DNA from: Fibrobacter sp.
Lineage (GTDB): Bacteria > Fibrobacterota > Fibrobacteria > Fibrobacterales > Fibrobacteraceae
Reading direction: 5' to 3'
Length of the DNA: 42,007 nucleotides
Assembly: GCA_031271785.1 (NCBI GenBank)
Contig: JAISUZ010000103.1
Location: 1 to 42,007 of the forward strand
The position numbers and the translations under genes were made by a program. The notes under the pieces are model-generated. The model was not told the origin of the DNA, did no database searches, and saw nothing but the letters and a program-made list of their open reading frames with translations. Positions within the stretch are counted from its first letter, which is position 1. Each line of letters begins with the position of its first letter. Shown piece after piece: positions 3,430 to 24,317 of the stretch.

Positions 3430-5241
3430 TTAAAAAGAAATCGGCGGGAAACGAATAATGGTGCGGAGTCCCGGCACTGCATTTTCTATGGAAACTTGCA
3501 TTCCCGTTAATTCGCAAAGCCGTTTGACCATGGAAAGTCCGATTCCCGTTCCGACGGTGGTTCTTGTCATTTCATTTTCAACGCGGTAGAATTCATCGAA
3601 AACGCGGTTCATTTCCTGAGAAGGAATACCCGGTCCGTAATCGCGGATGCTGAGTGAAATCACGTTTTCGGTGACGCGCAGTTCGAGTACAATCATTTTA
3701 TAATGGGCGGATTTGGCGAATTTGAGCGAGTTGTCCACCACATTCATTAAGACTTGCATCACTGCGTCTTTATCCATTAAAATTTCATAATCGCAAGCGT
3801 CGCTGCTTACGGTTAGATCGAAACCTTGTTTTTCAATATTTTTGCTGTAAGTGTTTACAAATTCTTCGAGTACGACTTTAGGGTTCAGTTTTTTCAATTG
3901 AATGTGCCAGCTGTTGCGTTCGAGTTTAGATAAGTTAAGTACATTTTGAATAAGTCTTGAAAGTCTTTCCGTTTCGCTTGCAATGGATTCGTAATATTTT
4001 TGGCGTTTCTGTTCGTTAGCGACCCATGAATTTTGAAGCAGTTCCGCATACATCCGGATAGCGGTCAGCGGGGTTTTCAATTCGTGGCTTACGGCGGAAA
4101 TAAAATCTTGCCGTTTACTTGCGAGGCGAAGCTGAGAGCGGATCATCTTGTAAAGTCCAATTAGAATACCGCCGAGAATGAGATACATTAAAATACCGAT
4201 GGCGATAATCATTTTGGTTCCTGGAGGTGCGGGCATGTCGCTCATGTAAATGGTGAGTTGCATTTGGTTGAGCGGCGCCTGTAAAGGAACGGAAATGAGT
4301 TCTCTCCGGGGTACGTTTTTGTTTCCGAAAATAGCGTAGGGGCTCGTTTTGGTACCGAATTCTAAAATCAGGTTGGTCCCTTCCGAAGAAGAGAGCGGCT
4401 CGCGCTGAATTAATTTCCGGAAGTAGTCGTTCAGGCGAACGGCGTAACCTTGGATAAATTGCTTGTTATTCCGCCAGATATTGCGGTAAAAAACAAGATA
4501 TTTGTCATTGAATTTTGCCTGAAACGGATCAATTGCAATTTCCATTACATCCGGAAAGTAAAGTTCCTGTGCCTCTTCTTTGATTGTGGAATCCTTTTCC
4601 GAAATTTTCCGGATTTGAGCGGATTCGACTTCAAAAATGAAAGTTTCTTTTTGGGTGCTTCGTTCCAGGCGGCGGTTAAACCGGCGTGCTTCACGCGCTT
4701 CATTGAGTTTAACGGCAAGTTTAATGTCTTCTCCGTAAAGGCGGTCGAGGCTGTCTTGCGGAGGTGCGCTGTAGGTTCTCTCTAAACCTTTGTTGCTGAT
4801 GTTCAGGATTTTTAAAACTTTTTGAATGGTGTCGCGCACCGCTTCCCGTTCGCGGCGGTTTTCTACCGGGATTTTTTCGAGAATACCGTCGGGAAGCACC
4901 GGCGTGCGAATGCCTCCGTCCGGATCCAGTTGAAAATGCCCGAGCATACCGCTGTAATGGCTTTCGATCGGAAATTGCGAGAGTTTGGAAAGAGTGACTT
5001 CTTCGCCGCCGATCACCGGAACGGCTTGAATAAAACGATACTCGGAATAGGAACGCTTTTCTTCAATGGCGAGGTCGTCGTAAATTCGTTGGTTTAGAAT
5101 TTGAATGATTAAATAAGCGTGTTCGCGTTGAGCGTATTGTGTTTCGTTTTGAAGATGCCGGTAAGAGTTTACTAACAGAAAAGCGATCGGAACCGCAATG
5201 ACTACGAAAATGACGGAAAAAATAAGTTTGAGCCGTTTCAT
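3430..5241 (-). CDS. Membrane sensor histidine kinase
   Basis: This 603-aa two-component sensor has TM1 at about 6-25, a large extracytoplasmic region of about 315 residues with no recognised sensor fold, and TM2 at about 343-364. The cytoplasmic kinase core follows: HisKA with SHELKTPLTAIR (phospho-accepting His386), N-box around Asn500-Asn504, G1 DYGPG (534-538) and G2 GTGIGLS (564-570). All catalytic blocks are intact. Its ATG overlaps the stop of the response regulator gene (ATGA, 4 bp), so the two form one operon and almost certainly a cognate pair. The signal is unknown. The adjacent outer-membrane barrel-like gene upstream hints at envelope sensing, but that is inference. Confidence 0.93.
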   Translation of the reverse strand: MKRLKLIFSVIFVVIAVPIAFLLVNSYRHLQNETQYAQREHAYLIIQILNQRIYDDLAIEEKRSYSEYRFIQAVPVIGGEEVTLSKLSQFPIESHYSGMLGHFQLDPDGGIRTPVLPDGILEKIPVENRREREAVRDTIQKVLKILNISNKGLERTYSAPPQDSLDRLYGEDIKLAVKLNEAREARRFNRRLERSTQKETFIFEVESAQIRKISEKDSTIKEEAQELYFPDVMEIAIDPFQAKFNDKYLVFYRNIWRNNKQFIQGYAVRLNDYFRKLIQREPLSSSEGTNLILEFGTKTSPYAIFGNKNVPRRELISVPLQAPLNQMQLTIYMSDMPAPPGTKMIIAIGILMYLILGGILIGLYKMIRSQLRLASKRQDFISAVSHELKTPLTAIRMYAELLQNSWVANEQKRQKYYESIASETERLSRLIQNVLNLSKLERNSWHIQLKKLNPKVVLEEFVNTYSKNIEKQGFDLTVSSDACDYEILMDKDAVMQVLMNVVDNSLKFAKSAHYKMIVLELRVTENVISLSIRDYGPGIPSQEMNRVFDEFYRVENEMTRTTVGTGIGLSMVKRLCELTGMQVSIENAVPGLRTIIRFPPISF

Positions 5242-20228: not shown

Positions 20229-21263
20229 GTGGAATCTCCTTTTTTTCAAAACCTTGAAGTTCAGAGCCGAAAGAAAATTTCGGCGATGGACTTTTTTGAT
20301 ATTCACCACCACCGGTTAAAACTTTCCGTCCATACGAATGCCGGAACACTTTCTTCCTGCATTGAAGAAGGAGGAATCCACCGCCCGGGGCTTGCGCTCG
20401 CCGGGTTTTTGGATGTTTATAACAGCCGCCAGATTCAAATGATCGGCAATACGGAATGGTATTATTTGGAGTCGGTCGGCGAAGGAAAGCGAAAGGAAAT
20501 CTTTCATCGTCTGAGCAGCAGTCCGACTCCGCTTTGGGTTCTCACAAACGGTCTGATGCCGCATCAGGAACTTGTGGATCTTTGCGAACAGCAGCATATT
20601 CCCCTCATGACTTCGCTGCTTTCGACGGCGGATTTCACTCACATTGTACAGCATTTTTTTGAAAACTTTTTTGCGCCGTATTATTCGATTCACGGCAGTC
20701 TGGTAGATGTTTACGGCGTTGGGATGCTTTATGTCGGTGCAAGTAACGTTGGTAAATCCGAATGCGTTTTGGATCTTATCGAACGCGGACACCGCCTGGT
20801 GGCCGATGATGCGGTGAATGTTTCACGGATCGGCAATTCCCTCGTGGGGCGCGCGAATAATTTGGTGAAACACCACATGGAAATCCGGGGAGTCGGTATT
20901 ATCGACATCAAGAGCATGTTTGGTATTCACGCCGTGCGGAACTCCAAAAAAATCGAAATTTTAGTGGAACTCCAGCATTATGAGAAAGACAAATCTTATA
21001 ACCGAACCGGGCTGGATACTAAAATGCAACCCATTTTAGGGACAAACATCCCTCATATTGTAATTCCGGTTTCGCCCGGCAAAAATTTGACCGTCATTTC
21101 GGAAGTGATCGCCATGAATACCCTTATGAAAATGAACGGTGTGGACACGGCAAAAGAATTCAGCAAAGAACTGCAGAAAACCATCCAGCGCCGCAAAAAC
21201 GGTAAGGATGAAATCGATTACTCTCCCGATAACGATCCCTCTTTCTGGGAAACCCATGAGTAA
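20229..21263 (+). CDS. hprK: HPr kinase/phosphorylase
   Basis: The 344-aa protein has a GTG start and an N-terminal domain (1-130, with PGLALAGF and RIQxxG-like RQIQMIGNTEW). The catalytic core follows: SIHGSLVDVYGVGMLYVG (153-170), P-loop GASNVGKSE (170-178), HRLVADDAV (188-196) and the HprK signature MEIRGVGIIDIKSMFG (217-232). It phosphorylates HPr on serine, linking the PTS to carbon control. The P-loop departs from the usual GDSGIGKS by Ala and Asn. HPr itself (ptsH) is not in the window. The rpoN-hpf-hprK order resembles the nitrogen-PTS region of other Gram-negatives. It overlaps the next gene by 8 bp. Confidence 0.93.
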   Translation: MESPFFQNLEVQSRKKISAMDFFDIHHHRLKLSVHTNAGTLSSCIEEGGIHRPGLALAGFLDVYNSRQIQMIGNTEWYYLESVGEGKRKEIFHRLSSSPTPLWVLTNGLMPHQELVDLCEQQHIPLMTSLLSTADFTHIVQHFFENFFAPYYSIHGSLVDVYGVGMLYVGASNVGKSECVLDLIERGHRLVADDAVNVSRIGNSLVGRANNLVKHHMEIRGVGIIDIKSMFGIHAVRNSKKIEILVELQHYEKDKSYNRTGLDTKMQPILGTNIPHIVIPVSPGKNLTVISEVIAMNTLMKMNGVDTAKEFSKELQKTIQRRKNGKDEIDYSPDNDPSFWETHE

Positions 21264-23721: not shown

Positions 23722-23754
23722 TTCCTTGTTTTTATCGTGGTTATCAAGAACACG
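23722..23754 (-). promoter_or_regulatory. preQ1-I riboswitch (translational type) controlling yhhQ
   Basis: On the minus strand: P1 5' CGTG (23754-23751), loop TTC, P2 5' TTG (23747-23745), ATAAC containing the ligand-pairing C (23740), P1 3' CACG (23739-23736), A-rich loop ATAAAAA, P2 3' CAA (23728-23726) overlapping the AAGGA ribosome binding site. Order, loop lengths and the total of about 33 nt match class I preQ1 aptamers of the Thermoanaerobacter tengcongensis kind. Ligand-stabilised P2 would hide the ribosome binding site. P1 is only 4 bp, which is on the short side. Confidence 0.75.
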
Positions 23755-23903: not shown

Positions 23904-24317
23904 ATGTCTTTTGAATCAAGTTCTGCAGAAAACCTTTCCTTGTGGGGTTACTATACCAAATGTCTCAAGAATTACGTCAATTTCAGCGGAAGAGCCCGCC
24001 GAAAAGAATATTGGGGATTTTATCTCTGGAATGTAATTATCTGTTGTGTTCTCGCTTTTATCGGCGGGGGCATTACCGCGGTTGTCGGAGATCCCAACTT
24101 TTCATTGGCGCTGGTTCCCTATTATATTTATTGCTTGATTATTATATTACCCGGTCTTGGCGTTTTTGTGCGCCGGCTCCATGACGTGGGCCGAAGCGGT
24201 TTTTGGATTTTTATTTCACTGATCCCTTTAATCGGCGCCATTGTTTTGTTGGTTTGGCTTTGCACTAAAGGCGAATCTTCCGATAATAAATACGGGAGAA
24301 ACCCGCTTGCCGGCTAA
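23904..24317 (+). CDS. DUF805 family membrane protein
   Basis: The 137-aa protein has the family pattern: an N-terminal YYTKCLKNYVNFSGRARRKEYWGFYLWN (about 16-43), three to four membrane segments, LPGLGVFVRRLHDVGRSGFWIFI (about 80-105) and a C-terminal GESSDNKYGRNP. DUF805 proteins (YhaH/YhaI type) sit in the inner membrane; their biochemical role is not established. GGAGG precedes the ATG. It ends 2 bp from the convergent EamA gene and stands alone in its transcript. Confidence 0.92.
   Translation: MSFESSSAENLSLWGYYTKCLKNYVNFSGRARRKEYWGFYLWNVIICCVLAFIGGGITAVVGDPNFSLALVPYYIYCLIIILPGLGVFVRRLHDVGRSGFWIFISLIPLIGAIVLLVWLCTKGESSDNKYGRNPLAG

Follow-up and report, generated by a model that had tools for sequence, protein, structure and literature searches.

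The window, i. e. the whole stretch of 42,007 nt that was analysed here, is contig JAISUZ010000103.1 of Fibrobacter sp. GCA_031271785.1. On its minus strand it encodes YhhQ, and a divergently oriented DUF805 gene starts at position 23904 on the plus strand. In the intergenic region between the two genes lies a sequence of 30 letters (23754-23725, minus strand) that reads as an H-type pseudoknot placed over the ribosome binding site AAGGA of yhhQ. On the minus strand the leader is GG-CGTG-TT-CTTG-ATAA-C-CACG-ATAAAAA-CAAG-GA, followed by AATCTTC-ATG. All eight P1 and P2 pairs (8/8) can form in it, and the four P2 pairs are all canonical. At the start of the window a 5S ribosomal RNA is clipped by the contig end (1-99, 66.5 bits).

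All pieces of a small aptamer which the first-pass annotation had listed for the minus strand are present between 23754 and 23723, including the A-rich third loop that runs into AAGGA. Two of them have to be delimited differently. The TTC read as a loop exists as a sequence, but consists of the two loop bases TT and the first base of P2; and the pairing of TTG with CAA is present but is part of four pairs, CTTG/CAAG, rather than three. The features are compiled in the table.

Features of the yhhQ leader and their positions in the window (R1, clade-specific covariance model described in the text)
Feature	Position	Strand	Basis or remark
TAAATTTG, match to -7 box	23784-23777	-	fits the Bacteroidetes-type TAnnTTTG
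Hairpin CCGTAAA-AGT-TTTGCGG	23771-23755	-	adjoins P1 directly
P1 5' strand CGTG	23754-23751	-	sequence; R1 alignment; P1 covariation in 49 leaders
L1 TT	23750-23749	-	sequence; first T constant in 49/49 leaders
P2 5' strand CTTG, anti-Shine-Dalgarno strand	23748-23745	-	partner is 23728-23725
L2 ATAA	23744-23741	-	sequence
Putative preQ1-pairing C	23740	-	49/49 aligned leaders; role predicted from preQ1-I structures (PMC11625349)
P1 3' strand CACG	23739-23736	-	R1 alignment; covariation
L3 ATAAAAA, A-rich	23735-23729	-	sequence; A-rich in all aligned leaders
P2 3' strand CAAG, shared with the Shine-Dalgarno site	23728-23725	-	sequence; R1 alignment; covariation
Shine-Dalgarno AAGGA	23727-23723	-	7 nt 5' of ATG; first three bases within P2
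yhhQ start ATG	23715	-	sequence
yhhQ, queuosine precursor (preQ0/preQ1) transporter, 228 aa	23715-23029	-	TIGR00697, PF02592

With the Rfam model for PreQ1 (RF00522) the site obtained 15.7 bits, compared to a gathering threshold of 39. The alignment was full-length (23759-23720), and L3 and P1 correspond in it. Matches of 15-17 bits are dispersed over the whole genome, which means that this score is at chance level. Because the Rfam score was below the cut-off, a clade-specific covariance model, R1, was built from relatives. It comprises 19 equal-length leaders of Bacteroidales yhhQ genes and no Fibrobacterota row at all. In the window, R1 identified this exact site with 40.0 bits (E 1.4e-6). 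The next-best match, with 17.8 bits at position 4470, looks like a partial chance match and apparently lies within coding sequence. Across the whole 2.3-Mb genome the site was the sole R1 match at E ≤ 0.1 (7.3e-5). Applied to the window, R1 is an independent test of the site. Hence the covariance-model check that accompanied the first-pass annotation turned out in two ways, namely below the cut-off for RF00522 and as a strong match for R1. The failure of the Rfam model extends to the relatives: none of 20 Bacteroidales leaders was matched by RF00522 at E ≤ 5, and its cut-off was reached in none of 198 Bacteroidales genomes.

Most yhhQ homologues of Bacteroidales carry the motif directly upstream, 0-15 nt before the ATG. 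Since MAFFT misaligned CAAG when run on the raw aptamers, we worked with seeds of equal length (A2) and with an alignment trimmed in the loops (A4). In the 19 seeds of R1 every P1 and P2 cell is paired, and three pairs are changed on both sides. In the loop-trimmed alignment, which contains 49 distinct leaders, covariation is evident in both P1 and P2: double-sided changes occur in seven of ten pairs, with 46 double-changed cells observed and 11.8 in shuffles. When the registers were slid by 1-3 columns, the paired cells dropped to 21-50%; the percentage in the proper register is inflated, because the parser behind this alignment accepted only leaders with four or more P1 pairs and with a C before the P1 3' strand. 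Unlike the pairing percentages, the variety of compensating changes is unaffected by this selection. P1 occurs as CGTG/CACG, AGTG/CACT, AGAG/CTCT, CGAG/CTCG, GGAG/CTCC, GGTG/CACC, GGGG/CCCC, ATGGG/CCCAT and GGCTG/CAGCC. Variants of the P2 pairing CTTG/CAAG include ATTG/CAAT and CTAG/CTAG, the compensating changes replacing C-G by A-U in four leaders and U-A by A-U in a single one.

The unpaired positions, i. e. the C before the P1 3' strand, the A of L2, the T of L1 and the A-run of L3, are no less strictly conserved than the paired ones. The C before the P1 3' strand is present in 49/49 aligned leaders, which is partly due to construction as the parser required it, and is preceded by an A in more than 90% of the leaders. 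The loop-closing G-C pair of P1, which would be the floor under the ligand position, is invariant. Exactly four P1 pairs were found in 48 of 69 parsed leaders. This makes the 4-bp P1 the commonest and normal form in this clade; the four pairs of the first-pass annotation are confirmed, but not the idea that such a P1 is unusually short. Together, the R1 match and the covariation of P1 and P2 support its central proposal, a compact class I preQ1 aptamer.

Some leaders depart from the common form. In L058, L111 and L127 stem-loops are inserted in L3 (26, 67 and 40 nt between P1 and P2, respectively) and P1 and P2 are kept; the insert of L111 has a folding energy of -25.5 kcal/mol, as against -12.5 in shuffles. 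A subgroup (L049, L100, L101, L102, L110, L123, L128) combines a longer loop, such as TATTCTAG or TATTCCAG, with a 3' strand CAGG or CAAG, so that P2 cannot be fully canonical and recalls that of Thermoanaerobacter tengcongensis.

Two further elements recur 5' of the aptamer. The first is TAnnTTTG, which corresponds to the Bacteroidetes-type -7 element (PMC7366714). It was found in 51 of 67 leaders (3.5 in shuffles), in some of them just a few bases from P1, indicating that the message starts shortly before the aptamer. The second is a hairpin that ends 0-3 nt from P1 (25/67 leaders, 2.4 expected). It is present in the window and in both Fibrobacterota relatives, and types such as GAGGA...TCCTC occur among the leaders. 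Possibly, this abutting hairpin stacks on the short P1.

The element in the window has the features of the preQ1-I class: a pseudoknot, the C before P1', an A-rich L3 (the loop that in this class crosses the minor groove of P1) and a queuosine gene as context. Judged by published descriptions of the types (PMC11625349, PMC10622847), it is nearest to type II, known from Bacillus subtilis and T. tengcongensis. With these it shares the AC before the P1 3' strand (AAC-CACG in the window), the H-type pseudoknot, the A-rich L3 and the G-C pair that closes P1 under the ligand (PMC11625349). A fully canonical P2 is also found in the B. subtilis aptamer, and a partial capture of the Shine-Dalgarno sequence in that of T. 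tengcongensis (PMC11625349). Yet the form in the window and in Bacteroidales differs from type II in its P1 of mostly four pairs, its CUUG/CAAG P2 and its target yhhQ. Moreover, the Bacteroidales-clade form is undetected by RF00522, and Bacteroidales hardly use Shine-Dalgarno sequences. Type II is known from Bacteroidota among other phyla. The type II consensus of the type-defining 2014 paper was reportedly derived from 521 sequences, and some Bacteroidales yhhQ leaders may already be counted in that list. The status as a variant rests on the consistently short P1, the CUUG/CAAG P2, the abutting hairpin and the platform.

The position before yhhQ and the AAGG would suggest type III, which is known before yhhQ in gammaproteobacteria (E. 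coli yhhQ) and is described almost only from Pseudomonadota. Very small size and the AC specificity base are also common to both, as are the UU after the P1 5' strand and AAGG at P2 (PMC10622847). However, type III has a pyrimidine-rich loop, whereas the loop of the window (TTCTTGATAA) and those of its relatives (TGCTTGAAAA and similar) are not of this kind; and type III pairs AGG with CCU, whereas the window does contain AAGG but keeps to the conserved register CAAG/CTTG. Loop composition and P2 register thus rule out type III. Type I is characterised by UC before the P1 3' strand and by two bound preQ1 molecules (PMC11625349); the window and the yhhQ-linked form in general have AC at this place, and the element is not of type I either.

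Sequences resembling type I do occur in Bacteroidales. Six RF00522 matches of 26-27 bits, i. e. below the threshold (L133, L136, L134, L135, L137, L138), show characteristics typical of type I, GACAG-TTCG...ATC-CTGTC...AAAACTAGGGA. The reading frame that follows starts QueC-like, with an SGGLD motif, in L133 and L136. These two belong to the same class, ligand family and host order as the yhhQ form. Bacteroidales therefore seem to use one type of preQ1-I for synthesis and another for transport. In the literature consulted, no link between preQ1 and Fibrobacter was found.

The first-pass annotation had placed the element before a transporter for queuosine precursors, and this is correct: YhhQ exceeds the cut-offs of TIGR00697 (107 bits, cut-off 50.95) and PF02592 (156 bits). 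Among solved structures we found none with a sequence match to the transporter. In the genome assembly, which is 95.5% complete, QueF, Tgt and QueA scored above cut-off. queC was not recognisable in it, the only QueC-like match being MnmA. Thus preQ0 or preQ1 would have to be imported, unless queC sits in the missing part of the assembly. Such a need for import fits an importer that is under feedback control by preQ1.

Apart from those of two Fibrobacterota assemblies, the proteins nearest to the YhhQ of the window belong to Bacteroidales, with identities of up to about 73%. In the maximum-likelihood tree it forms one clade (100/90) with the two g10 proteins inside Bacteroidales, nested behind several well supported Bacteroidales branches. 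The family's remaining YhhQ proteins mostly branch elsewhere in the tree, in different lineages. When 111 genomes of the family were searched with R1, three were carriers of the riboswitch (the window and the two g10 relatives), and the yhhQ genes of the other genomes lacked the element. A fourth, weak match in the family (G018, L132, 25.8 bits) apparently lies in coding sequence and looks like a chance match. The nested position of YhhQ and the restriction of the RNA to 3 of 111 genomes suggest that gene and switch probably moved jointly into this Fibrobacterota lineage; the nesting argues for Bacteroidales as the source.

Contamination is ruled out as the origin of the Bacteroidales-like gene. 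The gene at 20229-21263, 2 kb away, is of the ordinary Fibrobacter-family type and is present in 106 of 111 family genomes; in G107 it shares one contig with yhhQ, within about 4 kb. This also indicates that the two genera probably separated after the acquisition. Two further cases were noted. A yhhQ of the Fibrobacter family in G011 (L013) is also placed inside Bacteroidales, with no visible element upstream, and is either a second transfer or a binning artefact. A contig labelled Bacillota (L051) has a yhhQ and a leader nearly identical to those of Palleniella (Bacteroidales) and is probably from a mislabelled or misbinned assembly.

3' of the aptamer no terminator hairpin was found in the window leader, and the P2 strand lies over the initiation region. 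Control of translation is thus the natural reading. As far as can be judged from sequence comparison, the element is very likely a translational class I preQ1 riboswitch of the short-P1 form that precedes yhhQ in Bacteroidales, which the Fibrobacterota lineage would have acquired along with the transporter gene. At high levels of preQ1, or possibly also of preQ0, the ligand would pair with C23740 between P1 and P2. The bound ligand would lock P2, whose CAAG carries the first part of AAGGA, and translation of yhhQ would fall. When preQ1 is scarce, P2 would open, the ribosome binding site would become free and the importer would be made. We infer preQ1 as the ligand, this direction of control and a direct action on translation.

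The same pseudoknot might recognise preQ0, queuine or a guanine-like base instead of preQ1. YhhQ can transport preQ0 as well as preQ1 (PMC10622847), with QueF but no QueC preQ0 could be the salvaged form, and the preQ1 model RF00522 is unsatisfied. Yet another ligand is unlikely: characterised class I relatives with a C before the P1 3' strand bind preQ1, and the element agrees with these preQ1-binding aptamers in L1, L3 and the G-C floor pair (PMC11625349). Furthermore, QueF would convert imported preQ0 to preQ1, so that preQ1 would still report the supply.

Alternatively, the switch could be a vestige that came with the gene, its regulation having been lost in Fibrobacterota and its A-rich 3' strand serving just as a ribosome binding site. 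The two nearest relatives (L040, 1924-2003; L041, same region) could be read in this way. Both keep the aptamer. A strong hairpin, about 40 nt long, comes after it, includes part of the P2 strand in its base and separates the aptamer from the Shine-Dalgarno sequence TAAGGA further on; the coupling must therefore be different there. However, all three Fibrobacterota copies have retained P1, P2, the C and L3 in full, although protein identity is just 74%, which makes a vestige quite improbable. The very small size of the element and its place over the initiation region would also suit a ligand-independent attenuator of translation or an RNA thermometer that tunes initiation at yhhQ. With unpaired positions as strictly conserved as paired ones, and with genes that are specifically queuosine-precursor transporters, we consider this very unlikely. 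A chance hairpin beside a recognisable A-rich ribosome binding site, compatible with the noise-level Rfam score taken by itself, is refuted by the R1 E-value, the conserved position and the covariation in dozens of genomes, and hardly deserves consideration.

A preQ1 riboswitch of this form raises the question of how translation starts in its two hosts. The ribosomes of Bacteroidia do not recognise Shine-Dalgarno sites, and initiation depends on adenines at -3, -6, -12 and -13 and on little structure (PMC9976891). Shine-Dalgarno-like sites were counted before 15 of 40 open reading frames of the window and before 8 of 25 from other parts of the genome, as compared to 6 of 92 in Bacteroidales loci; these counts come from sampled loci with the first ATG taken as the start and hence are rough. 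The Bacteroidales leaders show an enrichment of adenine between -6 and -14, which is where L3 and P2 lie. The folded pseudoknot would hide these upstream adenines, and in the transferred copy a Shine-Dalgarno site would have arisen on the same P2 strand. As CAAGGA is also present in two Bacteroidales leaders (L089, L122), such a gain after the transfer is a suggestion only. In its full form the proposal is that Bacteroidales yhhQ genes are dominated by a distinct, database-invisible subtype of preQ1-I that works without Shine-Dalgarno sequences by hiding the A-rich stretch from -6 to -14, and that its 3' strand became the Shine-Dalgarno sequence after transfer. We regard this as evenly balanced between true and false. 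If true, one aptamer would serve two kinds of translation start.

For Bacteroidales, a major order of the gut, these results point to a widespread set of very small putative preQ1 switches that are invisible to Rfam, and for Fibrobacterota to an apparent case of a riboswitch that crossed phyla along with its gene. Since Bacteroidia hardly use Shine-Dalgarno sequences, the action of a translational riboswitch without such a site becomes a directly testable question. The Bacteroidales form and the transferred Fibrobacterota form with its AAGGA would be a natural experiment.
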